Origin: Craspedostauros australis
Taxonomy: Eukaryota > Bacillariophyta > Bacillariophyceae > Mastogloiales > Achnanthaceae
Assembly: GCA_026770025.1 (NCBI GenBank)
Contig: JAMXDE010000008.1
Coordinates: 1,116,001 to 1,180,000 of the forward strand
Length of the DNA stretch: 64,000 bases
Direction: 5' to 3'
Of this stretch, positions 1-55,545 are shown in pieces. The notes beneath the pieces are model-generated. The model saw only the letters and a list, made by a program, of their open reading frames with translations, was not told where the DNA came from and made no database searches. Each line of letters starts with the position of its first letter. Position 1 is the stretch's first letter. The translations under genes were made by a program, and so were the position numbers.

Positions 1-1238
1 AGCCTGCTACCAAGATCAGCGAAAGGTCGATGGAAGAGTACCGGATGCGCTACCAGTTCATCACCATGGATCCAACACCAAAGTTGAACAAGCAGGAGAG
101 CCTCCTCATGCTCGAGATGGTACACATGGCAGAAGCACGCAAAGAGCAGAATCGTCGCAACGAGAAGAGTGGGGAAGGTGCAGATGCAAACCTCACGTCG
201 GTTCATCCACAATCACAGTCGCGAGTAGACAAAGAACGACGGAATGTGAATGCCAGCCAACGACACTGCGTGCTGGATTGGGAGCAAGTCGCTGAGTCCA
301 TCAATCGCTTGCGAGCCTCATCGCCGCCAACAGCAGGAACGCAAGCAGAACCAGAAATACATGAAGAATCGAAGAGCAAGCTGACTGCGTGGGATTGCCT
401 CCACGCCTACGAAACGCAGCTCAAGCCCATCCACGCAGACTGGACCATCGAGGAAGACCGCGTCATGCTCGCAACCATGGCCGCGCTCGGTCCTCAGCAT
501 GTGCTGGATTTTCATGGAGTCATGACGGTGTCTGCGATGCTCGGTCACACCAAGAACATCAAGCAGATTCTGGCCCGGATCAACCAATCGCTCTTGAACC
601 CATCCCTCGATCACAGCCAGTGGAACAAGGATGATCAGCGCAGACTGGCGCTGTGCATGAAGGCATACAAGAACGATCCATCGCCGACATTGAAGGCCAA
701 TCTCTACCACTTCCCCAACAGGAATCCCACCATGGTGTCGGCCAAGTGGAATCGCTCTCTCAATCCTGATATCAACTCATGCGCAGGGTTTACGGAGGTC
801 GAGGATGAGCTCGTGAGGAGGACGATACTTGAACGGAGAGAGAAGAAGAAGACGCAAGCCATCGAGCCCATTCGTTGGACGCAGTACGCACGTGAGCACT
901 TTCCCAATCGGAGTGTCTATCAGGTCAAAACGCGGTGGTTGGACATGGCGGAGCCTGAGGATTTGATGGAGACGTACGAGAAGGCCGCGCTGTCTACCCG
1001 GCTGAAGAAGGATCAAGATATTCTGTCAGCTGAGGACTTCGTCGTCCAGACAGTGCCCATGAACATAGACATGAACATGGACGTGGACGTGCACATGGGC
1101 GGAACCCATGGCGGCGGCGGCGGCAGTGGTGGCAAAAAGAATAACAGCAGCAACCACCATGGTGACAACAGCGACAGCACCTCTGACGTGGATGGAGATA
1201 CTCGCACGAAGAAGAAACAGAAGAAGCAGATGCCGTAG
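1..1238 (+). CDS. SNAPC4-like Myb/SANT protein, 3' part (copy 1)
   Basis: This is the C-terminal part of a Myb-repeat protein, open in frame from base 3 and cut by the window start. The complete paralogue lies at 54305-56428. Visible Myb-like units include WTIEEDRVML; a repeat ending in AKWNRSLNPDI; and FTEVEDELV, followed by a third-helix-like NRSVYQVKTRW. The spacing resembles SNAPC4 (SNAP190), the DNA-binding subunit of the snRNA-activating complex, where a repeat likewise ends in RWTKSLDPGL. The C-terminus is an acidic, glycine-rich and lysine-rich tail. It converges on the PPR gene, with 85 bp between stops. SNAPC4 is a family-level inference; another nuclear Myb regulator is possible. 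Confidence 0.75.
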   Translation, partial: PATKISERSMEEYRMRYQFITMDPTPKLNKQESLLMLEMVHMAEARKEQNRRNEKSGEGADANLTSVHPQSQSRVDKERRNVNASQRHCVLDWEQVAESINRLRASSPPTAGTQAEPEIHEESKSKLTAWDCLHAYETQLKPIHADWTIEEDRVMLATMAALGPQHVLDFHGVMTVSAMLGHTKNIKQILARINQSLLNPSLDHSQWNKDDQRRLALCMKAYKNDPSPTLKANLYHFPNRNPTMVSAKWNRSLNPDINSCAGFTEVEDELVRRTILERREKKKTQAIEPIRWTQYAREHFPNRSVYQVKTRWLDMAEPEDLMETYEKAALSTRLKKDQDILSAEDFVVQTVPMNIDMNMDVDVHMGGTHGGGGGSGGKKNNSSNHHGDNSDSTSDVDGDTRTKKKQKKQMP

Positions 1239-1323
1239 TTTGCACTCACCCGTCACTGCGAAAATGTAGATTTCTGTGAAGAGTATTGGCTGTCGTTGCG
1301 AGGTGGCTTGTTTGCAGTTAGAT

Positions 1324-3909
1324 CTATGGACGGTGCTGCCGTGGGACGTTCCGGCTCCATTCTCTCGGCATCGAATGAGTATCAGCCGTTCCAAGGACTC
1401 GTTCCATGGTCGATCGTGATGGTCGAATACTGCCCCTCCTCAGCAGCATCAGCACCTTTCTGGACACGACTCCTCGTCGCTTGCATTCGGCCACAACAGG
1501 TGCCACATGCTGTATCCACTCCTCGTGTCTTCTCTCTTCGTCGGCCATGTCATCGCCATGACGGTTGCTGCTGCCGTCCCTCCCGGCCGATGCGAGTCCG
1601 GCGCTGCACGTCTGGATCATGTTGCAAAAGATGGAATCACGAAGTTTGGGGACCGGCTTCATGTATTGCAGCAATCGGTCCAACATTTGCAGATGCGACC
1701 TTGTGTCAACCGAGTCTCCGTTGTTGATGGCGTTGCTGCATTTCCTCACCATCACATCGAACGTGACATGATCAGGCTGGAGTCGAGGATCGGGGATCAT
1801 GTCATCCTCCAAGTACTCCATGGCCCTGTCCACGTCATCCAGCGCACGAAGGAGAGAGGTGTATGTGATGATGCTGGGTGAGATGTTGTTGGATAGCATC
1901 CGTCGCAGCAGTTCTTCAGGATCACAGGCAGATGCGTCACTTTCACTACTTCTACTGCTGCTGCCACTGTTGCTCCTGCTGTTTGCGATGGCGCTCATGA
2001 CGTTGTTGTAGGACAGTGTGTCTGGCATGATTCGAATGCTGCTTTGGCCATCGCTGTCTTCGCCACCATCGTAGTCGGTACCACCATCAGCTGCTTGTTC
2101 CACTCCCTCCATCCAATCCAACAAGGCCAGCGCGGATGGAACATCGCCTTTCCTGCTGTGCGCGTGCAACAGGCAGTTGTAGCTGAACAGATCAGGCCGT
2201 GCGAATGTCTTCAGCTTGTCGAACGCCCTCAGCACATGATCAATCGATTGGTCGGACCTTGACCATGCCGACAGCACAGCATTCCCAATCGACGTGTCTG
2301 GAGCAAAGTCCGTGTCATCGGGGAATGCCTCGTGCAATGCCAGCAGAGTATCCAGCAGTTGCTCCGCCCTGACGGCTGCATGCGGGACATTCTTTGCGCA
2401 ATGGGACCATGCGCCGATGCATGTGGTGAAGCTCCGGGTGTTGGGCTTCTGGTTCTTGCCCTGCTTGTAGCCTTCCACCATGTGCACCAGGATATCCTGC
2501 GCGCGCTGAGCGGCATCGCCACGGTGTTCCGTGGATTCGCACTGCGCCCATGCATGTAGCACCATGGAGTAGATTTGAGAGTTGGCAGTGACGGATGTTG
2601 CCCTCGTCAGTCCCACAGAATCAGCGTATCCCTCCAGCATGCGCAGGATGCTCTCGGCGGCCGTTGCGCCGCTGCGGGTGCGATGGTTTTGAGAGATGGT
2701 GCGAATGGCGGTGCTGAAGACCACCGAATCCAACGGGAAGGCTTCATGGGAGCCACGTTGGGCCTCGTCGATGGCCGATTTGAGGAGGGAGAGAATCTCG
2801 TCGATGGTGGACAGCGATTCCAGCACGCCCGTCAAGGTCCGTGCGTTGGGCTTGCTGCCAACGTGGGTACCTTCAGCTGTGGCCGTAGCTGTAGTTGTAG
2901 CCGTAGCTGTAGTTGTAGCCGTAGCTGTAGTTGTAGCCGTAGCTGTAGTTGTAGCCGTAGCTGTAGTTGTAGCCGTAGCTGCATCTGTAGTTGTAGGAGT
3001 GAGATTGTCCGTGTTTGTGGTACCATGCGCCACAGTGCTTTCATTCGCTTCTATCGGTGATGATGACAGAGGTGATGGCGACGATGCATCACCCCATTCT
3101 GCCTGATGGTAGCGTTGCATCTGCTGATACAGCCGCTGAACATGCATGGCAGCATCCGGAGACTTGCTCTTCGCCCAGCAGTAAATGACGATGTTGAAGC
3201 TCTTGGTGTTGGGTCGAACTTCCTTCCTCTGCCCAGCATTCGATATCATCTCTCCCAACAAACGCTCGGCCGACTCTGCGACCTCCACGGAGGCAGAACA
3301 GGAGCCGTACGCATTGAGGATGAGATCGTAGTGCAACCGCGATGTTCGCAGAGCATTGGGTTGTTTGGATTGTTTGGATTCCGTCATTTGATTTTGCTCC
3401 AATCCCTCCATGATCTCATCCTCCACAGCCAGCAACAGCGCTTCGCCATCCTTGGCAGCACGATGGCTCTTGTGAGTCCGTGCCACATGCATCCATGCCT
3501 CCAGCAGTCGGTAGCACTCCTCGCTGTACTGCCTGTTGGGATCGCGGTTGGGTTGCTTCAGGCTCTCAAGGAATTCGTTGGTGGATGCGGACAGGCTCTG
3601 GTTGCTGGTGTTGCCGCTATTGCCGCTGCTGGTAGTGGTAGTGTCAGCTGCAGTAGTTGCATCGCTGGGAGGAGTGGCTCCTGGTGCAGACGGTTGCGTG
3701 GATGCAGAGAGCCGTCTGTACGTATTCCACGTAGATGGAGCGGTCGTGATGTCAGATGTGCCCGCGAGCGTTGTATTCCTCGTGCACGAGGAAAACGGCA
3801 GGCTGGACCTCGCCTGCACTGCGTCTCCCGAGCAGATGGCGGTCCTCGAAAGGCTGCGAAGGCTGCGAAGGTGGGAGGCAACCAACCGTCTGCCAATTGA
3901 CCTCCTCAT
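1324..3909 (-). CDS. Pentatricopeptide repeat (PPR) protein, copy 1
   Basis: This is an 861-residue intronless protein. The N-terminus (MRRSIGRRLVASHLRSLRS) is basic, Ser/Arg-rich and lacks acids, as in a mitochondrial presequence. Several 35-residue PPR-like units follow, for example NTKSFNIVIYCWAKS, NTRSFTTCIGAWSHC, RPDLFSYNCLLHAHSRKGD, MPDTLSYNNVM, ISPSIITYTSLLRAL and QPDHVTFDVMV. PPR proteins bind organelle RNA in a sequence-specific way for processing, stability or translation; the target is not predictable here. A Thr/Ala linker near residues 310-350 is expanded by an 18-bp minisatellite that the second copy lacks. The paralogue at 51706-54219 is also intact, which points to a recent duplication or to selection on both. 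Confidence 0.88.
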   Translation of the reverse strand: MRRSIGRRLVASHLRSLRSLSRTAICSGDAVQARSSLPFSSCTRNTTLAGTSDITTAPSTWNTYRRLSASTQPSAPGATPPSDATTAADTTTTSSGNSGNTSNQSLSASTNEFLESLKQPNRDPNRQYSEECYRLLEAWMHVARTHKSHRAAKDGEALLLAVEDEIMEGLEQNQMTESKQSKQPNALRTSRLHYDLILNAYGSCSASVEVAESAERLLGEMISNAGQRKEVRPNTKSFNIVIYCWAKSKSPDAAMHVQRLYQQMQRYHQAEWGDASSPSPLSSSPIEANESTVAHGTTNTDNLTPTTTDAATATTTATATTTATATTTATATTTATATTTATATAEGTHVGSKPNARTLTGVLESLSTIDEILSLLKSAIDEAQRGSHEAFPLDSVVFSTAIRTISQNHRTRSGATAAESILRMLEGYADSVGLTRATSVTANSQIYSMVLHAWAQCESTEHRGDAAQRAQDILVHMVEGYKQGKNQKPNTRSFTTCIGAWSHCAKNVPHAAVRAEQLLDTLLALHEAFPDDTDFAPDTSIGNAVLSAWSRSDQSIDHVLRAFDKLKTFARPDLFSYNCLLHAHSRKGDVPSALALLDWMEGVEQAADGGTDYDGGEDSDGQSSIRIMPDTLSYNNVMSAIANSRSNSGSSSRSSESDASACDPEELLRRMLSNNISPSIITYTSLLRALDDVDRAMEYLEDDMIPDPRLQPDHVTFDVMVRKCSNAINNGDSVDTRSHLQMLDRLLQYMKPVPKLRDSIFCNMIQTCSAGLASAGRDGSSNRHGDDMADEERRHEEWIQHVAPVVAECKRRGVVSRKVLMLLRRGSIRPSRSTMERVLGTADTHSMPREWSRNVPRQHRP
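2882..2987. repeat. 18-bp minisatellite in PPR copy 1
   Basis: The unit GCCGTAGCTGTAGTTGTA occurs five times in a row (2882-2971), followed by a degenerate part-copy. It is in frame and encodes a Thr-Thr-Ala-Thr-Ala-Thr repeat in the PPR protein. The second PPR copy has only a residual unit, so the array expanded (or contracted) after the duplication; the net difference is 28 residues. Confidence 0.95.
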
Positions 3910-4668
3910 GCTGCACTGGAGACCTGTGGTGTCGTTGTTCGATTGGATTACAATGGATTGTAATGGATTGGATTGGATTGGATTGGATTAGGCAGTGTGA
4001 AAGAGAGAGGTGATGGTATGGTGGTGATCTCCACGTTGATACTGATGTTGACGGCGATGTTGATGTTGATGTTGATGTTGATGTTAGTGGTGGTCATGCA
4101 CCTGTCGTGTTGCAAGCCAAGAGACATGGAGATTTGGGTGGTGTTGGTGTGTTGGTGTGTTTGCGTGTTTGCGATGGGTGGTTCTCATTTTGTGACAGAA
4201 TGCTAAGAAGTTTGTCGAAGTAGTCGATGATCGCTGATGGAGCTGCGGTAATAATGAAATAGCCGTATTCACCCGACATTGGTTTGGAACAAACGATCGT
4301 TTTCTCAGACTGACAAGCAAGTCATCGAACAGATAACATTGCAAACTGACAATTGAAGAATGTCGAACTGACATCATCTATATTTGTATTTTCTGTCTAT
4401 GAAAGACTAAAGCGATTACTTTCACCAGGAACAACGTAGCCAAGTGGTTGGCGCCATTTCGCGTTGTTGGGAATTAGCCGCACCTGCGTCGCAGTTCGAC
4501 AAATCGTCTCACACGTCTGTTCACACACCTGTCATGCCAGCACCAACACCAAACCATACCATACCAAGCCACAGTTCCGCTGATTCCATTCGACCACACG
4601 CCCTCCGTCACGAACAACTGCAGAAGGTCCCGTTGTTGATATAATACACAGCAGACGAACAATCCACC
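3910..4668. other. Intergenic: arm boundary and microsatellites
   Basis: This is the divergent spacer between the PPR gene (minus strand) and the SCP2 gene (plus strand). It holds a GGATT-rich tandem repeat (3941-3990), a GATGTT repeat (about 4055-4086) and, near 4250, the inner end of the left duplication arm. DNA from 4250 on is unique to this side. I see no gene; small open frames here show no recognisable domain. Confidence 0.7.
3941..4086. repeat. GGATT and GATGTT short tandem repeats
   Basis: A GGATT-based array (3941-3990) and a GATGTT array (about 4055-4086) lie in the 5' flank of PPR copy 1. The matching flank of copy 2 (about 51540-51680) has related but shorter and more irregular versions. 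Confidence 0.85.
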
Positions 4669-8467: not shown

Positions 8468-9560
8468 GGTGCCTGCTTGCTTGTCTGTTTGCTTCTGTCG
8501 TTCTCTTCGTTCAACCCGTACCGATTCGACTTGTGTTGTGTTGCCAAGGCGATCTTGTCCGTGATGGGATGGTACTCCAGTACGAGCGCGTAATGTGGGG
8601 CAGCTGTGGATGTGGTGTGGTTGACGACGACAGTGCACGACTGCGTTGATGACCACAGAGAGAAAGGGTGCGAGGCAACAAACACAACACGATCTGTCTT
8701 GATCTTGTCCAGTCGCAAGCTGTTTGCAGATTGATTGGACGGTTCTGGTTGTTGCCGCGACAGCAACAGCAACAGCAACAGCAACAACATGCCACGCTCC
8801 ACAGATTGGTTGGCATCACCTTCTCCCGCTTCGCGGTGTCTGTTGTTAGTTGTCTGTTGTGCCTCCTCCCACCACACGTTTTGTGTTCCTCTTTTGATTC
8901 CAGTAGCGTCTGTGCGTGTGTGCGTTGATGCTGGATACAGTGTTCGACTCAATCGACCTTTCCAGGTGGAAGGAATCTGGAATCGTCCAGTCAACCATTC
9001 TCGACGGACAGACGGTCGTGTTGAAACAGAACAAGAACAAGAACAACAACGCAAAACAACACGAAACGACGTGAGACAAGGACGAATGAAGCGAGCAGAA
9101 GAAGTGAAGATGCACGCAAACAGACAGACACGGACGCAGGAAACGCCAAACACACGTGACGCGATCTATCAGTGACAATGTTTGGATTGACAGGTCGCAC
9201 TGTTTGGCAACGCACACAGAAAGCCGCGCAGAGAGATAGATGCGAGCAGAAATGGTGTGACGTTGAACATCAACATTGCCATCCGCACACTCCAACGATC
9301 TCCGCTCCTGCGACCACGCCAATCTATCACACGTCCACTCCACGAGTATACATCACACATCAACGACGAAGAAGCGGAAAGCTGCAGAGGATCGCATCAC
9401 AAATCACCAATACTTCGAAAGCCGCAAGCAACCAAGACGAACTCAAGATCTTGTTCTCGCTCTTGAGATCCATCCACAGTTGAGCACCAGCAGTTCTCCC
9501 ACCAGCAGTTCCCCCACCAACCAAGCAGCACCATCAACAACAACCACACGAGGAAGCAAG
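8468..9560. promoter_or_regulatory. Shared divergent promoter region, EBP1 and AlaRS
   Basis: About 1.1 kb separates the two start codons of genes transcribed in opposite directions, so both promoters and 5' UTRs must lie here. It contains a CAGCAA tandem repeat (about 8759-8788) and A/C-rich stretches near the AlaRS start, as seen before other starts in this window. I cannot assign transcription factor sites. Confidence 0.6.
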
Positions 9561-12500
9561 ATGAGCGAAGCAAAGGATGGAGAGACCCCGCTGGAGTGGC
9601 CCATGGACAAGGTCCGTCAGACCTTCATCGACTTCTTCGCGAAGAAGCACGGGCACACCTTCTGGCCATCATCGCCATGCGTTCCGGTGGACGACCCCAC
9701 CCTGCTATTCACCAACGCGGGAATGAATCAGTACAAGCCTCTGTTCCTGGGCACGTGCGACCCATCCCTCAAGATGGCATCGCTCAAGCGCGCCGTCAAC
9801 ACCCAGAAATGCATCCGCGCCGGCGGCAAGCACAACGATCTCGACGACGTGGGAAAGGACGTCTACCACCACACCTTCTTTGAGATGCTTGGCAACTGGT
9901 CCTTCGGAGATTACTTCAAGAAGGAGGCCATCCACATGGCCTGGACCTGCCTCACGGAGGAGTACGGCCTCGATCAAGAACGTCTCTACGCCACCTACTT
10001 TGGCGGTGACGAGTCCTCCCCGGCAGACGAAGAGGCACGCGAAATGTGGTTGGAGTACCTGCCAGCCAGCCGCGTTCTGCCGTTCGATGCCAAGGACAAC
10101 TTCTGGGAGATGGGTGCCACAGGACCATGTGGTCCCTGCACGGTACGTCTGCGTTACCCTCATTGTGTTGTGCCACGACAGCTGTGCGACGATGTGTCTT
10201 GTCGCTTCCGTCAGCACATTTGAAGAGCACGGATGTCCAACTTCCAAATCGACCTGAGATGATCGCACTCTTGTGATTGGACAATCCTGTCCTTTGGCGC
10301 CTCGCAATTCCCGTCAACAAACGTGCTCACTCTCTCTCTCTCTCCCTTCGGCTATTGTGTGTGTCATTTTGGACCACCCTTTCGATTGATGGAACGCTCC
10401 TGCCATGCGATCATCGCATCTCTTTCCATCCCCACCGGGTTGAACTCGCACTTGAATTGCGCCTGCATTCTATTCGCATTGGAAACCCAACTGGCAACAT
10501 GACATCAACGACAAATAACTTCAACAAAACGAAAATGCTCCATCATGACACGCGATGCCAATTTGCCAAACTTGCGACCCATGTCAATACGGATATTCCC
10601 TGCTCTTGTTCCAAATACAATTGCGATCGTGGTCACCGCATCAACATCGATAATGCTTGTCGCAATGCTTTCGCACAAAACGCGCGGCACGATGTGCAAT
10701 ACACAATCTGTGCACAAATCTGGGTCATCACATTCCACATTCCACAGGAGATCCACTACGATCGTATCGGAGGCAGAGACGCCGCCAAGCTGGTCAACGC
10801 GGACCTCCCGGACGTCATCGAGATCTGGAACAACGTCTTCATTCAGTACAACAGAGAGGCGGATGGATCGCTCCGACCGCTCCCAGCGCAGCACATTGAC
10901 ACCGGCATGGGATTCGAGCGTCTCACCAGCATCTTGCAAGGCGTCGACTCCAACTACGACACCGACATCTTCATGCCGCTCTTCGATGCTATTCAAAAGG
11001 CCACCGGCGCCAGGTCATACACCGGAAAGGTCGGCAAGGACGATTCCGACTTTGTGGACATGGCATACCGTGTTGTCGCCGACCACATCCGAACCCTCTC
11101 CTTCGCCATCGCCGATGGTGCCGTTCCAAGCAATGATGGTCGTGGATACGTGCTGCGACGCGTCCTGCGCCGTGCTGTGCGATACGGACGCCAGAATTTG
11201 AACGCCGAGCTCGGCTTCTTCGCCACCCTCGTGCCGGCCCTCGTCAACCTCATGGGCAACACCTTCCCAGAGCTCATCGAGAAGCAGGCGTACATCACTG
11301 CCATCATCCGCGACGAGGAGGAATCCTTCTCCAGAACCCTGGACAAGGGCATCCAGAAGTTCAACGAGCTCGCTGCCAAGCTCGAAGAGGGCAAGGTCTT
11401 CTCCGGCGAGGACGCTCACTTCCTCTACACATCCATGGGCTTCCCAATCGACCTCACGCAGCTCATGGCCGAGGAGAAGGGACTCACCGTCGACAAGGGT
11501 GGCTTCGAGGCGAAGATGAAGGCAGAGCAGGAATTGAGCGCAGCCGCCCACATAGCCAAAATGGCAGGCGGCTCCGGCAAGGACATGCGCATGGTCGCAG
11601 AGCAAACCGCTACGCTCGTGGGCAAGGGCGTTGGCGCCACCAACGACGACGAGAAGTACGTGTGGGACAAGCCCCTGGAGGCATGCAAGATCGAGGCCCT
11701 CTTCATTGGCAGAAACGAGACGGAGGACAAGATCGGATTCGTTGACTCCGTCTCGCCGGACAGCACCACGGTCGGAGTCATCCTCGACAAGAGCAGCTTC
11801 TACGCCGAGGCCGGAGGTCAGATCTATGACATTGGTACCATCAAGACTGCGTCAGGCACAGTCAAGGTTGAGAACGTTCAGCTGTACGGTCAGTTTGTGC
11901 TCCATGTGGGTGTCGTCACAGACGGTACCCTGGCCGTCGGTGATGCCGCCACCTGCAGCGTCGACTACGCCCGGCGTACCGAAATCGCCTCCAACCACAC
12001 CATGACGCATGTGCTGAACCACGCCCTGCGCGAAGTCCTCATCGCCCGTCCCGCCAAGGAAGGCAAGACCTCCAACGTCAGCGTCGACCAGAAGGGATCG
12101 CTGCAGGACGAGCTCAAGTCGCGATTCGACTTCTCGTGGAATGGTGCCCTCACCGCAGCACAGATGAAGGATGTGGAGGCAGAGTGCGTGAAGAACATCC
12201 AGGAGGGAGTTCCAGTCACCTCGCACGTGACTCCACTCGATGATGCCCAGAAGATCAGCTCGCTGCGTGCTGTGTTCGGTGAGAAGTACCCCGATCCCGT
12301 GCGAGTCGTCTCAATCTCCGCAACCCCAATTCCAGAGATCCTGGCCAACCCAGATGATTCCAAGTGGGGAGATTACAGTCTGGAGTTTTGTGGTGGAACG
12401 CACCTGAGCAACACCAAGGACGCCGAAGCCTTCGCGCTGCTGAGCGAGGAGGGTATCGCCAAGGGTATCCGCCGCATGGTCTTCGTGACCAGAGAGAAGG

Positions 12501-13069
12501 CCAAGGCCGCCATCGCTGCCGCTGAAGCATTCGAGGTCAAACTCACCGCTGCGGAAGCCGTCGAAGGTGCCAACCTCGAAAAGGAGGTCAAGACGCTGAC
12601 CGCCGAGCTCGATGCCCTCGTCATCTCCGCGGTCCGAAAGAACGATTTCCGCGCCACCCTGCAGAAGATGTCGAAGAAGGCAGTCGCATGGAAGAAGGAA
12701 CGGCTTGCCGGCATGACCGGCGAAATCAAGCAAGGTGCCATCGCCGCAGGCGAAGCCTCGGAGGGCAACAAGGTCGTCTACCGCTTCGACTTCGGCATCG
12801 ATGGCAAGCTCGCGAAGAGCGTGACGCAGGCATTCACCAAGAAGATCAAGGACAAGGCTCTCATGCTCGTCTCTGCCGACGAGGCCGCCGACCGTTTCAT
12901 GGTCATGGCCGTCGCAGCGAAGGGACTGGATATTGACTGCAAGCAGTGGGTCACGACATCCTGCGAAGGCACCGGAGGCAAGGGTGGTGGCAAGAAGGAC
13001 AGCTGCCAATTCACAGTTCCAGGCGTCAGCCACGTGGACGCCGTCATGGAGAAGGCCAAGAAATATTAA
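9561..13069 (+). CDS. AARS: Alanyl-tRNA synthetase
   Basis: Two exons are inferred (9561-10142 and 10748-13069), joined at GTACGT...CCACAG so that GPCGPCT continues directly into [13 protein letters not shown]. The protein is 967 residues (human AARS1: 968). It charges tRNA-Ala in the cytosol. Visible parts are the class II catalytic core ([34 protein letters not shown]), the editing-site HxxxH (H611, H615), the later C...H zinc motif CGGTH (C742, H746), and the C-Ala domain to the end. The start is set at 9561 because MSEAKDG leads straight into the conserved region. An in-frame ATG at 9276 would add 95 residues that look like translated 5' UTR, though a targeting extension cannot be excluded. 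Confidence 0.96.
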
Positions 13070-15171: not shown

Positions 15172-16368
15172 TCAGGCAGACTCAGCAGCAGCATCATCGG
15201 CTGCTGTTGCTGGTTGTTCGTCGATGAAGTCGGCCTTGACCTTACGACCAAGATGCCACGCGGAGCTGCCGAAGAGGGCGACATTGACGCTCATCAACAC
15301 GTAGTTGACAGGAGTCACCAGCAAGGAATATCGCGAAAAGAAGAACCCGGTCAGCGTCAGGGCGGTGTACTGAGGGAGGCTGATCTGGTCAGTTGGGCGG
15401 TGCAGGTCGAAGAAGCTGGCACCGGAAATACCCCATTTCGACATGGGTGCCTGCCGAATTGCAAACGAGGTTTCCGCCATCCCGTTGTATTCGTAGTGAC
15501 GCCAATGCCATTGTGCAGCAATACGGTGAACAACATGGATGGAGCAACAGCGATGGGTGAGATGACGAACGTGATGATTTGCCATCACGGGTACAAGCAT
15601 GCACATGTACTCATGCAGAGGCAAGCGTGTATAATGTAACACTAAACGCAAGTGCATGGCACATCACATATCATACATCACACATCGCACAGATCGCATC
15701 ACGTGACGTATCGCATCGTATCGTCGTGGAGTGTGGCGACTCACCCAGAAATGAACGGTAAATGGACCAGCGTCGGCAGCTGCGATTGCAGAGATGGCTC
15801 CCAAATTCGCGTTCGTGAGGGCGGATCGAGCTCGTGGACCAGCGGCGACGCATCCGGCGAGCACAGTGCCGCCGACGGCAGCCTGCTTGCCAAGCTCCAT
15901 GACCCTCTCCTTCTCGCCATTCTCCATCTTGTGCTGCAGCGCACGACGCAGCTGGTTGGTTTGGGCAATGACGTTCGCCAGATGGCATGCAGCCAACGGC
16001 ACGTTGCGTGGCTGGACGATCCACGCCCAGCGCATGAAGAGGCCGGAGTAGATCATGAGCACCGGCGTCATCGTCAGGCTGATCACCTCGGGACCGGAAT
16101 TCATGGAATCGTAGATCGCGGAGAGCGACATTCCCCATCCGGCGGCGGCGCCAAGGCCACCCCAGAATCCGGCGGAATGCCACAGGCCGGTGGGCTTCGT
16201 CTCAGCTGCTGCTTCCGCGGTCGTGGCGGAGGCCACCTTCTCCTTCGCCACGGCCTTGGCGGCCTCCTCCTTGCCCACGGATGTCGAGGCCTTTTCTGTC
16301 AACCATCGTCTGGCGGCGCCGCGCGAACGGATCAGCGTGGTTGAGGCGAGTCTCGAGCACGAAAACAT
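15172..16368 (-). CDS. Fused MPC1-MPC2 mitochondrial pyruvate carrier
   Basis: Two exons are inferred (16368-15745 and 15450-15172; intron GTGAGT...GGCAG, 294 bp), giving 300 residues. Residues 1-25 (MFSCSRLASTTLIRSRGAAR) look like a mitochondrial presequence. Residues 61-148 form an MPC1-type domain: FWGGLGAAAGWG, PEVISLTMT, YSGLFMRWAW, VQPRN, ACH. Residues 201-282 form an MPC2-type domain: AGPFTVHFW joined across the intron to APMSKWGISG, then SRYSLLVTPVNY. In known systems these are separate proteins that form an obligate heterodimer importing pyruvate across the inner mitochondrial membrane. Between them, residues 160-200 include a Gly/Ala-rich hydrophobic stretch that could cross the membrane. 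The intron cuts inside the second domain, so one transcript must encode both. The upstream in-frame ATG at 16551 was not chosen because the presequence begins at 16368. Confidence 0.88.
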
Positions 16369-24858: not shown

Positions 24859-26365
24859 TCCGATCGTCCGAGTGCACGCGCTGAGGCCCTCGGCGATCAC
24901 CAAGGTCTGAACCTCTCTGGGTGATCTCGTTGGCGCCGCTCTCGCAGTTAGCCAGGTGGTCAATTCGAATGGGGTCTCTGTTTCTCTGATGATAGAATGG
25001 TTGCAGAGGCAGCCGCATACACAGACGCATACACAGACGCAGACGCAGACGCGGAGCACCCTTGATGTCAGCTTCGTCTTCCTCGTTGCTGGTGTTGCCG
25101 TTGCTGGTGTTGCCCTTTCTCTCTGCTCTTGGCCTGCTCTTGGTCTCTCTGTCGATACCCAGGGAGCTGAATACGAGCGAGTGTTGGAGCTCCCAGATGT
25201 TGGTTGATGAAATTCAGCCTGTCCAAGTCACACCGCAACTCTTTCACTGCGGCGTGATCGTGATGCCACCGCAGCTGACGCTCAAAAGGCCTGCGTGTCG
25301 GTGATACACCGCTGTTTCTCTCCGTGTTGGAGAAGACTGAAAATCCCATGGAACTATGAAAGTACCCCAGTCCTGAAACAATGAATCTTGTTTGAGCGTG
25401 TTTCGCCAGAAACTGTCCAATCAGACTGTGCGAAACCTGTGTTGTTTGAACGTGCATATCCGTGTCACATATGTATCTGTCTCATGTCTTGTACGACACA
25501 AGTTAGTCCCTTTCAAGTCCACATCAACTTTTCGCCAGATCAACAAACCCACATGGTGCAACGGATTCACGGACGTCGCGACATGCGCGAACAGTCGCCA
25601 AGATTGCGGCGTGACAGCTGCGAGCGTGACATTCACAAATAGGGATGATTTTTTTGTAAATAATAATCAAGCATGAATGATGCCCAAGCGACTTATTTTT
25701 TCACTATTGTTCTACGACAGTGGTGTGACAAGTCCTCGCCGTTGATAAGACTGAGTGCAGCCAAGCATCGCATCTTTTGGAGGGAGGTTGGATTCTGGAG
25801 TCGGCGAATTGCGCGAGAACGCAACACCACACATGAACAACCACGAAGTGTCGTGTTGCTCTCCGCGAAGTGCATCTTGCGAACGAAGCCAATGCGATGC
25901 GAGACAACACAACACAATTCGATGCAACGCAACGCAATTGGAGGTGAGGACGAAAAAAGGGAAGCAAAGAAGCGAGACATGAAACAGGAACTCTCTTGGG
26001 TTTGAATCTTTCGTGGGAAGCATTCGCAGAGCACTCGTATAGTAGTATAGTATACTGCCAGTGCAGCATTAATGGGACGACACATTGCAATTCACCACAA
26101 CATCAGCACATCACCAACAAAGAGAACAGTTCGTGCGTGTTCACGGCCATCACATTGATCGTTGCATTGATCGTTGCATTGATCGTTGCATTGATCATTG
26201 CTCTGCATCATTTCTGTCATCGCATTGATTGCTGAGGTCATTCATCTCATTCATCGATCCATCGATCCACGACATTGTACGTCACCTCCATCATACAGAA
26301 GTACAGAAGGACAATAGCACAATAGCACAATAGCACAATACAGAGACAGTGAAGAGAAGAGAAGG
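24859..26365. promoter_or_regulatory. Divergent spacer, KH and PrsW-like genes
   Basis: The 1.5 kb between two divergent genes contains an ACAGACGC-type tandem repeat (about 25020-25054), a 12-bp tandem repeat (26153-26200) and an ACAATAGC repeat (about 26310-26340) just before the PrsW-like start. An open frame continues upstream of the KH start to 25059 but reads through the ACAGACGC repeat as poly Val/Cys, so I treat it as noncoding. Confidence 0.5.
26153..26200. repeat. 12-bp tandem repeat
   Basis: The unit CATTGATCGTTG occurs about four times, the last copy altered to CATTGATCATTG. It lies in the promoter side of the PrsW-like gene. Confidence 0.93.
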
Positions 26366-29300
26366 ATGTCTTCGTCTGGAGGTGGAAAGAACAAACGCCG
26401 GGGAAAGAAGGGCAAGAGAGATTCGTCTTCGGACTTGCCATCCACTGACAGTCCCTACATCCCTCCATCGCTCGATTCTGTCGATGCTAGTGCCAATGCC
26501 AGCGCCAACACCAGCGTCAATGCCAGCGCAAACACAAGTTCCAGCACAACAAGCCCAACAAGCCCAACAGCGGACGAGTTCGTGACATCGCCTCCAAAGC
26601 ACAAGAGCCTGACAGGCAATATCACATCCCTCTTCCGCCGTCCCAGCTCCAAGGAACCAGGCAAGCGCGACAGCTCGCAAGGTGGCGGCAAGAGCCCCAG
26701 GAAGACTTCGTCTGCCTCCAAGCAGCGCAGGAGGAGAGCGGCAGGCCGTGGAAGCCCCGCCGCAGATTCCCCAGCTGAACGCCACGGCAGCGATGTGCTC
26801 GATGGTCTCCTCCAGCAGGCCGTTGCGTCACCCAGGAGGACCACGGCGCAGCAGCAGTCTCAGAAGGCGGGGAGATCAGGAAAGACGGACAAAAGAAAGA
26901 CGACGTCCAAGAAGACCTCTGCCGGGGCTGCCACAGCAACTGCCGGTGCTGCGGAATCGACCGGCAAGAATCCGCCGCAGCCCGGCAAGCGCCTCGATCG
27001 CAAAGCCAGACAGCTCTCCGTGGACAGCAAGAGCAGCCACGCCAGCAGAATCAGCGGCAGGCTCTTCTTCTCCTCGCATGCTATGGACGACGATGAAGAT
27101 TCGGAGGATTCCTACGATGACACCACTGAATCCGGCTTCCCCAGCCGGAGGGTGCGATCGCACGATTCCGAATCGGGTTTCACAAGCAGCCTCAGTCTGG
27201 CCGATCGCACCATTCTGCGCTACAGGGGCTTCTCCACCTCCGTCCAATCTCTCTTCCTAGACGAATCACTCGTCTGCGCCAGCATCGGATGCTTCGGTCT
27301 CGTGCTGTCCAACCGCACGGAATACCTCCTGCAAATCCGCAATGACCGTCGCGGAGTCAGATGGGGCAAAGCGCATGCTCGTCGCACGCTGCCCAGTCGG
27401 ATCGTGGCCTACGCCCTCCTCCTCACTGTGGTCCTCATCTTCCTCACCTTCATCATCTTTGGCTTTGGCAACAATTCGGAATCCACGTCGCTCGCGGGGA
27501 ACTTTGTCGAAGGATACGACTACGGCGATGATTGGAAGCAGCAGGATTCTGTGGACGGTGATGATGGTTACGACAACAATGGTTACGACGACGCGCAAGA
27601 TCAAGACGCCAACGATGATGCCATCGCGAACGACGATGCCAACCAGAATCAGGATGATGCATACTACAACAACAATGATGATGCAAACTACAACAACAAT
27701 GATGATCAAAATGATGACTACTTTGACAACAACGATGATGCCAACAACAACGACGACGCCGCAGCCAATGATGACTACGCGGCATATTACGGCGCAGACG
27801 ATGATGCTGCTGCCAATCAAAACAATGATGATGGTGCTAACAATGACGACGCCAACAATGATGACGCCAACAACAACAATGACGACGCCAATAACAATGA
27901 CGATGCTGCCAACAACAATGACGATGCTGCCAATAACAATGACGATGCTGCCAATAACAATGATGATGCTGCCAATAACAATGACGACGCTGCCAATAAC
28001 AATGACGATGCTGCCAACAACAATGACGACGGCGCAGTCAATGACGATTACGCGGCATATTACGGCGCAGACGATGACAACAGACTCCTTCGAGAATATG
28101 CGGCGGAAACTCAGCTAGAGGCCTACCCTCCAAGTTCATGGCATCCCAAGGTTGGCATCTTCAAAGTCAGAGATATGAATGATGCGCTGTGGGCACCGGC
28201 ATCTGATTATCTTTCCTCCGAATGGAACCGTCAAGAGTCCACGGAATGGAATCCCAATCGTCATCTTGAACAGGGCAATAACAAAAACAAAAACAACAGA
28301 AAACTGCAGCAACAGGCTGATTTTGACCAGGACGATGCAGACTACACGCTCGATCTGGGCAGCACATTGCGACTCTCCCTCTTCATCGCGTTCCTCATCG
28401 TCTTGGGCATTCTTGGACGCAGACGTCGAATGAGGACGAGGTATTACATTGTCAGAGCGCGTGCCCAAGAGGATCATCTCTTCTACGCATCGGCAGGGCT
28501 GGAGACGAAGCGCGTTGCGTTTCATGACACCAGGGAAGACCAATTCGACGGTGCCTGCAGCCACACATTATGCGGATGCTACCCCATCGATCCACCTGCG
28601 GAAGAGTACGAAGTCGATGACGATGTGGAAGTCACGGATGTGGGGGTGGTGCACAAGAAGAAGAGGCAGCGTCATGATGACTTCGTCGCACGATTTTTCA
28701 GTGGCCTCCTGGCATGCTGCTGCGGGCTCCTCTGCAAGTGCTGGTGCCAGTGTCTGTCGATATGCGCTTTGGCCCAAGAAGCGCGCGAGATCCGACTGCT
28801 GGTGCCCACCAGGTACCAGCGCATCGATTTCATCACGCACCAACCCTTCCAGGAGTACCAAAAGGTCGTCAACGATCTGCGGTTGGGATGGCTCGGCAAG
28901 TCGCGAAAGAAGTCGGGCATCATGCCCCACTTCCATGCTCTGAGCCGCCTGAGCAGATACATTCTTGCCACTTTCTTCGTGTGCTGCTCGGCCATCATCA
29001 TCAGCCTCGTCTTCAACCCCAACTCTGCCTTCGATTGGCCCGATGCCGTGGTGCTGATAGCCACATTTTTCCAAAGCTTCACAGTCATCTTCGTCGCCTA
29101 CTGGATATTCCACAAGAGCGATCTGAGTTTAGATGCGGTCATCAAATTCTTCGCGGCTGGGTTCGTGATCGCAATGCCCTCCGCATTCCTCTTCGAAGGC
29201 ATCACGGTCAACTTCATCGGCGCCATCATCTGGATGGGTTTCAACCTGGGCAGCGCCATCTTTCCGGATGATTTCGAGGCCCTCATTTCCAGAAACTACT

Positions 29301-30241
29301 ACTTGCTGTGGGTTGTGGGCGAGCTGCTCAATGCCTTCATCGTCGCCGCCATGACAGAAGAGCTCTGCAAGTACTACACCTTCCGATGCGTCGAGCATCC
29401 CGACCTGCTCTTCCTCACAGGCCTGGACGCCGATGACAACGACGACCGAGCTGTGGAAGGCGGTCTCGTCAAGTACCCATTCAGCTCCCACCAGGTGCAA
29501 AAGACCAACATGATGAACGACGACGTGTCCGTCAGTGGCAGCTCCCGAGCATCGCATCGCAGCAGACAAGGCCCCGATGACGATGAAGCCTTGGAAGAGG
29601 AGGAGATTGACGTACGCACGCACCGCCAACGTGCCGCTGCCGTCACTACCGGAATGATCTGCGTGGCAGTTGGACTGGCGTGCGCCGAAAATTTCCTGTA
29701 CGTCTTCCTTCTCGGCGGCGCAAGCAGCACCGACGCATCGATAGATGATCGCAACAGCGCGGTCCTGGATGAGTGGGCCATCCTCCTCTTCCGTTCCCTC
29801 TTTCCCGTGCACGCCCTCGCGGCCGCCATGCAAAGCGTCAACATGAACCGCAAGTTCGTCGAGCTGTCCACTGTCAACAAACATCGCATCGGTGTCGGCC
29901 GCATCATCCTCCCGGCCGTGCTCCTGCACGGGACGTTCGATGCCGTGCTCCTCATGATCAACGTATACGTCGAAAAGTCGTGGGGCAAGTACCTTGAGGA
30001 ACACCAAGGCAACGTCGAGGAAGGCGTCATGCCGTACAACAGCCTCCTGCTCAACACCATCGCCTGGCTTTTGGTGACGACCATTATGCTGGCTGGGGTG
30101 GCATGGTACTTCCGCGAAAACAGAGCCCAACGCCTGCGTCTCATCTTGCTGGAAGAGGAGGAGAAGGCCAAGAACGGCGACAACGTCTACACGAATGCAT
30201 CGAACATCATGTCCCACGATACTGAGGCAGAGATTGTATAG
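26366..30241 (+). CDS. PrsW-like intramembrane protease with disordered luminal repeats
   Basis: This single-exon protein has 1291 residues. Residues 1-290 are polar and Ser/Thr/Lys-rich. A hydrophobic helix (LLLTVVLIFLTFIIFGFG) follows near 355-370, then about 200 residues dominated by Asn and Asp, including ANNNDDA heptads. A second helix (LSLFIAFLIVLGILG), a Cys-rich cluster and a block of hydrophobic helices follow. Three motifs of the PrsW family (putative glutamic intramembrane proteases) are seen: EELCK (E998, E999), AENFLY (E1108) and HGTFD (H1188, D1192). In bacteria PrsW cleaves anti-sigma factors; the substrate here is unknown. The acidic loop would face a lumen or the cell exterior. 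A Ser/Arg/acidic insertion sits between the first and second motifs. Confidence 0.85.
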   Translation: MSSSGGGKNKRRGKKGKRDSSSDLPSTDSPYIPPSLDSVDASANASANTSVNASANTSSSTTSPTSPTADEFVTSPPKHKSLTGNITSLFRRPSSKEPGKRDSSQGGGKSPRKTSSASKQRRRRAAGRGSPAADSPAERHGSDVLDGLLQQAVASPRRTTAQQQSQKAGRSGKTDKRKTTSKKTSAGAATATAGAAESTGKNPPQPGKRLDRKARQLSVDSKSSHASRISGRLFFSSHAMDDDEDSEDSYDDTTESGFPSRRVRSHDSESGFTSSLSLADRTILRYRGFSTSVQSLFLDESLVCASIGCFGLVLSNRTEYLLQIRNDRRGVRWGKAHARRTLPSRIVAYALLLTVVLIFLTFIIFGFGNNSESTSLAGNFVEGYDYGDDWKQQDSVDGDDGYDNNGYDDAQDQDANDDAIANDDANQNQDDAYYNNNDDANYNNNDDQNDDYFDNNDDANNNDDAAANDDYAAYYGADDDAAANQNNDDGANNDDANNDDANNNNDDANNNDDAANNNDDAANNNDDAANNNDDAANNNDDAANNNDDAANNNDDGAVNDDYAAYYGADDDNRLLREYAAETQLEAYPPSSWHPKVGIFKVRDMNDALWAPASDYLSSEWNRQESTEWNPNRHLEQGNNKNKNNRKLQQQADFDQDDADYTLDLGSTLRLSLFIAFLIVLGILGRRRRMRTRYYIVRARAQEDHLFYASAGLETKRVAFHDTREDQFDGACSHTLCGCYPIDPPAEEYEVDDDVEVTDVGVVHKKKRQRHDDFVARFFSGLLACCCGLLCKCWCQCLSICALAQEAREIRLLVPTRYQRIDFITHQPFQEYQKVVNDLRLGWLGKSRKKSGIMPHFHALSRLSRYILATFFVCCSAIIISLVFNPNSAFDWPDAVVLIATFFQSFTVIFVAYWIFHKSDLSLDAVIKFFAAGFVIAMPSAFLFEGITVNFIGAIIWMGFNLGSAIFPDDFEALISRNYYLLWVVGELLNAFIVAAMTEELCKYYTFRCVEHPDLLFLTGLDADDNDDRAVEGGLVKYPFSSHQVQKTNMMNDDVSVSGSSRASHRSRQGPDDDEALEEEEIDVRTHRQRAAAVTTGMICVAVGLACAENFLYVFLLGGASSTDASIDDRNSAVLDEWAILLFRSLFPVHALAAAMQSVNMNRKFVELSTVNKHRIGVGRIILPAVLLHGTFDAVLLMINVYVEKSWGKYLEEHQGNVEEGVMPYNSLLLNTIAWLLVTTIMLAGVAWYFRENRAQRLRLILLEEEEKAKNGDNVYTNASNIMSHDTEAEIV
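27870..28030. repeat. In-frame 21-bp tandem repeat in PrsW-like gene
   Basis: Seven or so copies of a 21-bp unit like GCCAATAACAATGACGATGC plus one base encode ANNNDDA heptads. Copies differ by silent changes such as AAC/AAT and GAC/GAT, so the array is kept at the protein level or is still being homogenised. Confidence 0.9.
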
Positions 30242-33180: not shown

Positions 33181-33894
33181 TTATTGAAAGACATCCTCCT
33201 GTTGCTCGTCATCCTTCGTCTTCTGCTGTTCCTGTTCCTCGTCGTGCTGGTGTTGTTGCTCGCTATCCTTGCGTGTCTGCATCAGCGCATCACTTCGCTG
33301 GTGCTTCTTGAATATGGTCTTGGACTGCACCATCATGTCGACGAAGGCCCAGAGCTGTGACTCCTGGTACTCGCCGCTGCTGGTGTTGCTGGCGGAGGCC
33401 GAGGCAGCGAGGCTGGATTGCACCTTCTGACCAATCTGAATCAAGGTGGAATCGAACAATTTGGCAAAGTCGGACGACATCGTCAGCTGCTGCTGCAGGA
33501 AGTTGGAGACTTGCTGACGGCGCTCCTCGTCGTCCTTGATGGTGGACAGGTCCATGATGATCTGCTCCATCTCCTGTTGGGAGAACGTTTGGAGGCTGTC
33601 ATCGATGTCGCTGCTGCCGTCTGCGTTTTCCTCATTGATGGCAGACAGACATACCGATGTTGCAGTTGTTGCTGACACGAGTGGCCGTGTTCTTGCCAAC
33701 CTTTGCTGCGCATGAATGAGGAAGGCGGACCGCTGCGACGAACTGCTCGCGCATTGGACCGAGTGCTGTGGGTGGTGTGAACTTCTGCCTTGGTATCGCG
33801 ATCCGAAATGTGGCTGAAATGACAGAACAGGCGTCAGCACCAACACGGACAAAGCAATGGAGGCCCACATCGATTTGGAGCGTTGCATCCTCAT
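33181..33894 (-). CDS. Unknown protein with bipartite plastid-type signal
   Basis: This is a 237-residue protein. Residues 1-25 (basic start, then WASIALSVLVLTPVLS) form a clear signal peptide, and the residue after the likely cleavage site is Phe (VLS then FQPHF). A Ser/Arg/His-rich stretch with few acids follows to about residue 75. This matches the signal-plus-transit presequence of secondary red plastids, where an aromatic at +1 is required. The mature part has a helical stretch (MEQIIMDLSTIKDDEERRQ, then FLQQQL) and a Gln/Glu/Asp-rich tail. I recognise no family. The in-frame ATG at 34038 would place 48 polar residues before the signal peptide, so 33894 was chosen. Confidence 0.72.
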   Translation of the reverse strand: MRMQRSKSMWASIALSVLVLTPVLSFQPHFGSRYQGRSSHHPQHSVQCASSSSQRSAFLIHAQQRLARTRPLVSATTATSVCLSAINEENADGSSDIDDSLQTFSQQEMEQIIMDLSTIKDDEERRQQVSNFLQQQLTMSSDFAKLFDSTLIQIGQKVQSSLAASASASNTSSGEYQESQLWAFVDMMVQSKTIFKKHQRSDALMQTRKDSEQQHQHDEEQEQQKTKDDEQQEDVFQ

Positions 33895-35126
33895 GCTCGC
33901 GTGGGGATTCGGAAGTGCGGTTGGTGTCGTCGTTGTTGATGCTTGTTGCTGGCGCTGGTCCTTGCCGATGCCGATGCTCCTCTTGGATAGCGAAGTGCTC
34001 GTATCCTGCAAAAGAGTTCCGAGTGTACACATGCGCAATGCGTGGAGAGACGAATGTTGGCATTGATGTGCGTGTCCATGGTGAAATGATGCCGTCGCTG
34101 TTGTTGTGTCTGGTTTTCAAGATTTTGAAGTCCGAGTTTTTGGGGACTATCTTCTGTTCTTGTGCATTCGTTTTAACCATACTCTTATACCAATTAAAGC
34201 AAATTGGTCATCGTGACAGGCACGAATTTCGTCAATCAATAATTTGTCACATCTTCGATTCCCTTCTCTTGGTGGGCAATCCGCACACGACAAAGACAGA
34301 TTCGGAAGAACGGGGAAACGCGCCGAAAACACAAAGAGAGCGAGATTCCAAAGCGGCGAAGCCTGCGTAGAACAGCGACAAAGGACTCCACAACAGCAAC
34401 CAGCGAGGTGTTCCCTGGAACCTTCAGGTTCTTGCCCTGTTCCCATCCGAGAGGAGGCAACTCTTCCGTGCACCCTTGATTGACCGAGACATCACCGAAA
34501 GCACCAACAAACGCGCCACAGTGCGCCCACAGCTCGTATCCGTAGCCAAGAGATCAACAAATCGTCCCAACAACGACGCCTCCAACCAGGACCTGTATCC
34601 ATCAGCATCATCTGACCAGCCAACGACCAACAACCAGCAACCAGCAACCAACAACCAACCATCGTCACGTTGCCTCTTGTGCTTGGCTTCGTCCCGTTTC
34701 GTCCGCCTCAATCCACACCACGAGAACTCGAAGATCCGAGACTGTCGCAAAAGCCAACACGACATCAGCAAGAAGCAGACGGGTGAATAGAGCATAGAGC
34801 GCACGTAGAGCAGAGTACCTGAACGACTGGTGCTGCTTGCTTTGCTCCGACCAAGCCACGCACAGCACAGAGTGAGAAGCCTCCAACACCTCCTCTGCCA
34901 AGCCCGCGATCATTGCACCCTCTTACCCTGCAAACACCACGAGTTGTCTGCACAACACATACCACAACACGTACCACACATACCACACATACACACGTAC
35001 ACACATACACATACACATACACGTACACGTACGCATCGATCCAAGGACAGCACATCCTCTTTCGAGCATTCATTGCTGGCAGTGTAGTAGTGAAGTAGTG
35101 CAGTAGTGAAGCAGCGTAGCAACAGT
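33895..35126. promoter_or_regulatory. Divergent spacer before the kinase gene
   Basis: This 1.2 kb lies between two divergent genes. It has a CAACCAACAAC-type repeat (about 34618-34662) and an ACACATACAC/ACGTAC repeat (about 34965-35032), the latter just before the kinase start. No gene is recognised. Confidence 0.5.
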
Positions 35127-50531: not shown

Positions 50532-51705
50532 GACGGATCTGTCGGTTGTGTGCGTTCGGTATAGATATCCGAGAAGGTGCAATGTGATGTGATGCGATGT
50601 GGGCAGGGCCGGTCTTGTTTGGCTGTGTGGCAGGACAATCAGGATGGCAATGGCGATGATGCCAACAACAACCGAGGTGAGAGGAAGTGCATCTTCTTCG
50701 TGTCAGTCCACATGAAAACTCCCTGCATTCACGTTGGGCAGAACTTCCACGAAGACGATCGCCGCGTTTTTGCTTGTTGGTGTTGTTGGTACAGAGAGAG
50801 GACTGAAGTAGGCGTTATCTGTGCAACAACGCAGTTCTTCCTTCCAAATGGCGAAAAAGACAAGACACGTCACCATTGTATCGTTGCGGTTGGTGGTCAG
50901 ACGAACGACATTCGACCATGAGATTCTACACACAAACTCAAACTACCAGCACTGTCTCTTTAGAGTACGGCATTCGGCAGCGGGAGTGTGTGATGCTTTC
51001 CTCCTCCTCTCTTCTTCCCATGCGCCCCCTCAACCTGCTCAACCATCCAATAATTCATGTGGTGTTGTACAACAAATTCAGTCCCGATGCTGGCGTTGAC
51101 CAGGTCAATCGTTTCTGTCAAGAGATGGACATCGCTTCGAGAAATGGTCTCAGCGGATACAACTGCAGAGCAGCAGAGTTTCACATGAAACAAAATATAA
51201 TAGTACACATGCTTGGTGAGGCATGCTCCAGGTTCCATTCATCCACAACAATGCACATGCATGGAGATCTCCATCTGTCTGCACATGTTCGTCAGAATCC
51301 AACGATCCTGATAGAGTCTGAACGAACCTTCTCACCGTTTCTCCGCTCTTCTTTTCAGGAACCACTGTAAAAGCTATATTCCCGCAACTCCATTTGGGAT
51401 CATCGACTACTTCGACAAACTTCTTGGCATTCTGTCACAAAATGAGAACCACCCATCGCAAACACGCAAACACACCAACACCACCCAAATCTCCACGTCT
51501 CTTGGCTTGCAGTAGTCATACAATACATGACCATCCACTAACATCGACATCAACATCACCGTCAACATCAGTACCAACGTGGAGATCACCACCATACCAT
51601 CACCTCTCTGTCTTTCACACTGCCCAATCCAATCCAATCCAAACCATTACAATCCAATCCATTATAATCCAATCGAACAACGACACCACAGGTCTCCAGT
51701 GCAGC
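50532..51705. promoter_or_regulatory. Divergent spacer, ClpP and PPR copy 2, with arm boundary
   Basis: The inner end of the right duplication arm lies here, near 51378-51420. Upstream of it the sequence is unrelated to the flank of the left arm. From 51400 to 51705 the DNA matches the region 5' of PPR copy 1, but with shorter simple repeats. No further gene is recognised. Confidence 0.6.
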
Positions 51706-54700: not shown

Positions 54701-55545
54701 CTTCTCTCTCCGTTCAAGTATCGTCCTCCTCACGAGCTCATCCTCGGCCTCCGTAAACCCTGCGCATGAGTTGATATCAGGATTGAGAGAGCGATTCCAC
54801 TTGGCCGACACCATGGTGGGATTCCTGTTGGGGAAGTGGTAGAGATTGGCCTTCAATGTTGGCGATGGATCGTTCTTGTATGCCTTCATGCACAGCGTCA
54901 GTCTGCGCTGATCATCCTTGTTCCACTGGCTGTGATCGAGGGATGGGTTCAAGAGCGATTGGTTGATCCGGGCCAGAATCTGCTTGATGTTCTTGGTGTG
55001 ACCGAGCATCGCAGACACCGTCATGACTCCATGAAAATCCAGCACATGCTGAGGACCGAGCGCGGCCATGGTTGCGAGCATGACGCGGTCTTCTTCGATG
55101 GTCCAGTCTGCGTGGATGGGCTTGAGCTGCGTTTCGTAGGCGTGGAGGCAATCCCATGCAGTCAGCTTGCCCTTCGATTCTTCATGTATTTCTGGTTCTG
55201 CTTGCGTTCCTGCTGTTGGCGGCGATGAGGCTCGCAAGCGATTGATGGACTCAGCGACTTGCTCCCAATCCAGCACGCAGTGTCGTTGGCTGTCATTCAC
55301 ATTCCGTCGTTCTTTGTCTACTCGCGACTGTGATTGTGGATAAACCAACGTGAGGTTTGCATCTGCACCTTCCCCACTCTTCTCGTTGCGACGATTCTGC
55401 TCTTTGCGTGCTTCTGCCATGTGTACCATCTCGAGCATGAGGAGGCTCTCCTGCTTGTTCAACTTTGGTGTTGGATCCATGGTGATGAACTGGTAGCGCA
55501 TCCGGTACTCTTCCATCGACCTTTCGCTGATCTTGGTGGCAGGCT
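51378..55545 (-). repeat. Right arm of inverted segmental duplication
   Basis: This stretch is the inverted partner of 1-4250. Position 55545 pairs with base 1, so homology may continue beyond 55545 against DNA left of the window. Gene order, the 85-bp space between the two converging genes and the 5' flank of the PPR gene are all shared. The arm is slightly shorter because it lacks the 18-bp array. Confidence 0.93.
51706..54219 (+). CDS. Pentatricopeptide repeat (PPR) protein, copy 2
   Basis: This 837-residue paralogue of the gene at 1324-3909 has the same presequence-like start (MRRSICRRLVASHLRDLRS) and the same PPR units. Differences by eye: the Thr/Ala minisatellite block is nearly absent (28 residues shorter), a four-residue duplication reads SAINSAINNGD where copy 1 has NAINNGD, and there are scattered single changes such as SGP-type swaps between Ser, Gly and Asp. 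The frame is open throughout. The frame also stays open upstream to 51394, but the stretch is 5' UTR by comparison with copy 1, where only the inner ATG is kept. Confidence 0.88.
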   Translation: MRRSICRRLVASHLRDLRSLSRTAICSGDAVQARSSLPFSSFTRNATLAGTPDITTAPSTWNTYRRLSASTQPSAPGATPPSDATTAADTTTTSSGNSGNTSNQSLSASTNEFLESLKQPNRDPNRQYSEECYRLLEAWMHVARTHKSHRAAKDGEALLLAVEDEIMEGLEQNQMPESKQSKQPNALRTSRLHYDLILNAYSSCSASVEVAESAERLLGEMMSNAGQRKEVRPNTKSFNIVIYCWAKSKSPDAAMHVQRLYQQMQRYHQTEWGDASSPPPLSSSPMEANESTVAHGTTSTDNLTPTTTDAATATATAEGTHVGSKPNARTLTGVLESLSTIDEILSLLKSAIDEAQRGSHEAFPLDSVVFSTAIRTISQNHRTRSGATAAESILRMLEGYADSVGLTRATSVIANSQIYSMVLHAWAQCESTEHRGDATQRAQDILVHMVEGYKQGKNQKPNTRSFTTCIGAWSHCAKNVPHAAVRAEQLLDTLLALHEAFPDDTDFAPDTSIGNAVLSAWSRSDQSIDHVLRAFDKLKTFARPDLFSYNCLLHAHSRKGDVPSALALLDWMEGVEQATDGGTDHDGGEDSDDPSSIRIMPDTLSYNNVMSAIANSRSNSGSSSRSSESDASACDPEELLRRMLSNNISPSIITYTSLLRALDDVDRAMEYLEDDMIPDPRLQPDHVTFDVMVRKCSSAINSAINNGDSVDTRSHLQMLDRLLQHMKPVPKLRDSIFCNIIQTCSARLASAGRDGSSNRHGDDMADEERRHEEWIQHVAPVVAECKRRGVVSRKVLMLLRRGSIRPSRSTMERVLGTADTHSMPREWSRNVPRQHRP

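Follow-up and report, generated by a model that had tools for sequence, protein, structure and literature searches.

The 64-kb window, by which we mean the whole stretch of DNA that was analysed, carries on its minus strand a predicted fusion gene for the mitochondrial pyruvate carrier (MPC). The gene consists of two exons, and its spliced product is 300 residues long. Its parts are as follows.

15745..16368, minus strand: exon 1, codons 1-208, a single frame running from the ATG to the donor GTGAGT; it matches PF03650 at E 2e-21 and encodes, after a presequence-like start, the MPC1-type domain, the linker and the beginning of the MPC2-type domain.
16285..16368, minus strand: residues 1-28, presequence-like N terminus with 6 K/R and 1 D/E.
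15922..16176, minus strand: residues 65-149, MPC1-type domain, where the best PDB matches are those of MPC1/MPC1L; it includes E94, Y107, P120 and H129.
15775..15921, minus strand: residues 150-198, linker, drawn from hydropathy.
15835-15885, minus strand: charge-free residues 162-178, candidate linking helix.
15745..15774, minus strand: residues 199-208 (DAGPFTVHFW), start of the MPC2-type domain, inside exon 1.
15451..15744, minus strand: GT-AG intron, 294 nt, phase 0.
15172..15450, minus strand: exon 2, codons 209-300 and the stop; it matches PF03650 by itself at E 2.7e-21 and holds the remainder of the MPC2-type domain and an acidic Ala-rich tail.
15250..15450, minus strand: residues 209-275, the rest of the MPC2-type domain, where the PDB matches are those of MPC2; it includes K213, T242, Y249, P255 and N264.

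The coding sequence begins with an ATG at 16368 and ends with a TGA stop at 15174-15172. The intron opens with the donor GTGAGT from 15744 and closes with the acceptor ...CGGCAG, the last base of which is 15451, and on these sequence signals splicing is predicted to join 15745 to 15450. Exon 1 ends with the MPC2-like residues AGPFTVHFW and exon 2 opens with APMSKWG, such that removal of the intron rebuilds the conserved FWAP motif exactly. The original prediction had described one two-exon gene in which the 5' part of the second domain is encoded in exon 1 and FWAP is restored at the exon junction; each of these points was borne out, now with exact coordinates and with exon 1 as an uninterrupted frame. 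Within the intron there is one in-frame TGA (15666-15664). The intron length is a multiple of three, and an unspliced message would stop at this TGA, 26 residues into the intron, giving a product of 234 residues made up of the MPC1-type domain, the linker and a 26-residue tail. This MPC1-type product of intron retention is what speaks for a reading of the locus as two adjacent genes or a mis-read splice, with exon 1 yielding an MPC1-only protein that stops at 15666-15664 and the MPC2 part being separate. We regard that reading as extremely improbable, as exon 1 itself encodes, in the same frame, the MPC2-like AGPFTVHFW, exon 2 resumes exactly at AP, and exon 2 by itself is without the start of its own domain. 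A scan of 15400-15800 for bacterial promoters and terminators returned none, a type of scan that is uninformative for a eukaryotic gene.

The spliced product was searched against Pfam, where it matched PF03650 (MPC) in two stretches with an E-value of 1.3e-49 and a score of 167.4 bits, against a gathering cut-off of 27; no other family was found in the 300-residue product at E up to 1. A phmmer search against the PDB at E up to 10 gave 11 distinct sequences, 10 of which are MPC proteins, while the eleventh is a designed protein with an E-value of 1.1 that was taken as chance. All four MPC1/MPC1L sequences matched best on residues 65-149 or 65-153, and all six MPC2 sequences on residues 199-274 or 199-275. 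In pairwise BLAST comparisons domain 1 shared 47.6% identity with human MPC1 (84 residues aligned) versus 26.3% with human MPC2 (76 residues), and domain 2 shared 42.7% identity with human MPC2 (89 residues) versus 25.9% with human MPC1 (81 residues). The bit scores followed the same pattern: 75.1 for the MPC1L stretch, 69.7 for human MPC1 and 26.9 for human MPC2 with domain 1, and 71.6 for human MPC2, 42.7 for the MPC1L stretch and 40.8 for human MPC1 with domain 2. Yeast Mpc1 and Mpc2 were also compared, using sequences entered by hand. Against these, Mpc1 gave domain 1 a score of 64.3 bits and Mpc2 one of 29.3, whereas for domain 2 the scores were 72.8 bits with Mpc2 and 50.1 with Mpc1. The identities of domain 2 to the two yeast proteins are nearly equal (41.3% over 80 residues for Mpc2, 39.7% over 63 for Mpc1), so the margin is smaller there, though the bits favour Mpc2. 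Judged by sequence comparison, the match to two MPC domains is far beyond chance. An MPC1-type domain followed by an MPC2-type domain had been proposed by the original prediction, together with an alignment of each half; Pfam, phmmer and BLAST agree with that order, and the aligned halves fall in different MPC subfamilies, MPC1-type and MPC2-type respectively.

The pyruvate pocket was compared with that of the human MPC1L/MPC2 pair, for which PMC12007569 names 12 residues. Counted from the residue map, 8 of the 12 are identical when the domains are assigned as they stand, versus 3 of 12 when the domains are swapped. The identical residues comprise 4 of the 7 on the MPC1 side (Y107, F111, L125, H129) and 4 of the 5 on the MPC2 side (K213, T242, L260, N264). 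Replacement of H86 in MPC1L or of K49 in MPC2 fully abolished the pyruvate-dependent stability shift (PMC12007569), and both of these residues critical for pyruvate binding have equivalents in the fusion, H129 and K213. The four pocket residues that are changed are S35 to G77, L38 to M80, F71 to W114 and W82 to F246. Outside the pocket set, the helix 1 proline P32 is replaced by A74 in domain 1, helix 1 of this domain carries a three-residue insertion, and the loop between helices 1 and 2 is one residue longer. The inter-domain salt bridge E51-K66 of the outward-open state is not conserved as a pair, E51 being kept as E94 and K66 being replaced by Q230; this bridge was seen in the human structure and was not counted as defining the MPC family. 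Among the human variants described in PMC12007569, S35A still transported, whereas the others that were made showed severe defects, and no folded protein was obtained for N100A. The substitutions in the fusion pocket are mostly to similar residues, and none is of the alanine-replacement type tested in human MPC.

These substitutions may also bear on the function of the carrier. It might mainly export pyruvate, such algae being able to make pyruvate inside their mitochondria, or it might carry another small acid. Export from diatom mitochondria is proposed in PMC5124317 itself, and the four altered pocket residues together with the altered salt-bridge partner K66 would fit a change of direction or substrate. 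Against this, H129 and K213 are kept, and the sequence does not settle in which direction transport would run; we consider either variant unlikely. A carrier that transports pyruvate is the reading we prefer.

Residues 1-28 would be suited to mitochondrial targeting, to judge by their charge and amphipathic character. The peak hydrophobic moment of the whole protein, 0.441, falls in the 18-residue window from residue 6, with a close second value of 0.423 in the window at residue 137. With the charge count, this upholds the earlier claim of a presequence in the form of a presequence-like start. Yeast MPCs are imported by the carrier pathway with TIM22 (PMC12007569), and the putative presequence of the fusion protein would differ from that.

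The linker between the domains has a best 19-residue hydropathy of 1.14, compared with 0.43-1.45 for the best windows of the six MPC helix regions, the borders of which were set by hand. When residues 150-199 were shuffled 5000 times, the observed maximum was reached by 659, 2079, 1866 and 1207 shuffles for windows of 15, 17, 19 and 21 residues, respectively. With 1866 of 5000 shuffles reaching the 19-residue value, linker hydropathy was rejected as strong evidence for a 3+1+3 plan. Each exon product was also folded alone with AF2, without relatives. The exon 1 model had a mean pLDDT of 46.7 and drew a helix at residues 153-175 with low confidence. The exon 2 model had a mean pLDDT of 72.8 and a pTM of 0.38, and it drew a single helix over residues 25-91 where three were expected. 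Given the low confidence and the one long helix, the models of the separate exons were judged unusable.

The argument for a linking helix comes from topology. In human MPC a pseudo-twofold axis normal to the membrane relates the helices of the two protomers, three in each (PMC12007569), and the N and C termini of a protomer therefore lie on opposite sides of the membrane; which terminus faces which side is debated (PMC12007569). In a single chain with a heterodimer-like arrangement and parallel domains, the linker would thus have to cross the membrane. A seventh helix within residues 150-198 is accordingly expected from topology, as a candidate linking helix. The halves of SWEET and cystinosin are joined by such an extra helix (PMC12007569), and the architecture of SWEET, two triple-helix bundles and one joining helix, is the one proposed here for the fusion. 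The kinship with SWEET that the original prediction had pointed to holds at the level of the Pfam clan, as MPC and SWEET both belong to CL0141 (PMC7176098); the SWEET domain PF03083 itself was not matched by the fusion, which gave only PF03650 at E up to 1.

The same linker could be the place where one precursor is cut after import, in which case the working carrier would be the usual two-protein heterodimer. A basic PRARS at residues 178-182 directly follows the charge-free stretch, and the linker segment PRARSAL resembles what we take to be a matrix-peptidase site, with an Arg near the cut. This loose Arg pattern also occurs three times within residues 1-21, in the presequence-like part. However, 3 of the 7 pattern matches in the protein fall inside the MPC domains, so that with a pattern this loose a match carries little weight. 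In addition, the excerpts of PMC5124317 and PMC7176098 that concern fused MPCs mention no cut. Cleavage in the linker is hence held to be quite unlikely, and an uncut chain is preferred.

Natural fusions of this kind are already on record, and the statement in the original prediction that none had been described was wrong. Cyclotella cryptica and other diatoms carry one fused MPC1/MPC2 gene, as published in 2016 (PMC5124317), and Medrano-Soto et al. 2020 (PMC7176098) described a number of MPC proteins predicted to have seven helices on a 3+1+3 plan, the plan that the original prediction had put forward; the remark on this plan in MPC is repeated in PMC7699257. The C. cryptica gene g13004.t1 likewise combines both MPC1 and MPC2 in one gene, the likeness being drawn by its published description alone (PMC5124317). 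With respect to the origin of such chains, PMC7176098 favours duplication of a 4-TMS precursor and keeps fusion possible. Seven-helix chains can also be compared with the present gene in the order of their domains. One of them, C5K6B0, presumably comes from Perkinsus. Helices 1-3 of this protein (TC 2.A.105.1.8) are MPC1-like and helices 5-7 MPC2-like, which is the same order and the same 3+1+3 plan as proposed for the fusion, again likened by published description alone (PMC7176098). The fused MPC of the present gene adds one more case to a published kind and is not a discovery, and since such fusions have been reported (PMC5124317, PMC7176098) its value is that of an additional case whose gene structure is clear.

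Compared with human MPC1/MPC2 and MPC1L/MPC2 (PDB 9mnw, 8yw6, 9giv), the fusion has both domain types in common, and H86, K49, E51 and the cis prolines P77 and P91 all have equivalents in it. It differs in being one chain instead of two, at S35, L38, F71, W82, P32 and K66, and in the helix 1 insertion. Among the literature matches listed, most subscription papers being outside their scope, no natural MPC fusion was found to have been assayed for function. The excerpts of PMC6993867 (ciliate subunits) and PMC5823908 (human MPC2 alone) held nothing bearing on MPC fusion, and in PMC5715807, PMC6198282 and PMC7350735 the matches were confined to the reference lists, with no bearing on it. Searches for close relatives with the 300-residue product as the single query matched 6 stretches by pattern in viral_contigs and 76 in genome_contigs, with 0 confirmed in either; as these sets consist of viral and prokaryote sequence, the result says nothing about algae.

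Taken together, we consider it highly probable that this is the gene of a naturally occurring single-chain mitochondrial pyruvate carrier, one that has an MPC1-type and an MPC2-type domain and transports pyruvate. The gene would be nuclear and probably belongs to a diatom or a related alga with a secondary plastid, a guess based on the overall appearance of the genes, on the plastid-presequence-like start of the ORF at 33184-34116 and on features typical of diatom retroelements. In the mechanism we propose, the presequence-like N terminus would direct the chain to mitochondria, and the domains at residues 65-149 and 199-275, with three helices each, would by homology fold in the inner membrane as a pseudo-twofold pair. 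The linker at residues 150-198 may cross the membrane once, on weak sequence support, to give the 3+1+3 plan as in SWEET. H129 of domain 1 and K213 of domain 2 would then meet on the pyruvate carboxylate in a shared cavity, and pyruvate would be moved by pH-driven alternating access of the type proposed for human MPC in PMC12007569. With both halves in one gene, a single chain would lock MPC1 and MPC2 into a 1:1 ratio, making it useful for work on structure, topology and import, and it fits a functional unit that is heterodimeric. A more far-reaching version, in which a single-chain MPC with a presequence has a true SWEET-like 3+1+3 topology, is imported by a route other than the carrier pathway, has its direction or affinity tuned by G77, W114, F246 and Q230, and occurs in a species without separate MPC genes, is conceivable and rather doubtful as a whole.

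Elsewhere in the 64-kb window, a gene pair consisting of a Myb-like and a PPR gene is present twice in inverted orientation, at 1-4253 and 51377-55545, about 47 kb apart; the copies share 97.5% identity across 2930 aligned positions and 94.6% across another 1299, and the first begins at the window edge. Rfam at gathering scores gave no match in the window, and ARAGORN found no tRNA. Two long ORFs on the plus strand, 59586-63998 and the preceding 56729-59137, had no Pfam match at E up to 0.01. By eye the former resembles a reverse transcriptase (FVDD; GQGNGAGPAIW), the latter motif being one that we believe to be common in diatom retroelements. The ORF at 33184-34116 on the minus strand, also without a Pfam match, contains an internal Met, after which come a signal-peptide-like stretch and LSFQP; in our view this resembles the bipartite presequences used for secondary red plastids. 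A PrsW-protease-like protein with a long Asn/Asp/Ala-rich stretch is encoded at 26318-30238 on the plus strand, where the DNA contains repeats, including one at 27726-28077. An alanyl-tRNA synthetase lies at 9267-13066 on the plus strand; its ORF 10277-13066 was matched by Pfam, the ORF 9267-10220 (plus strand) looks by eye like the N-terminal part of the same enzyme, and the two are probably separated by an intron.
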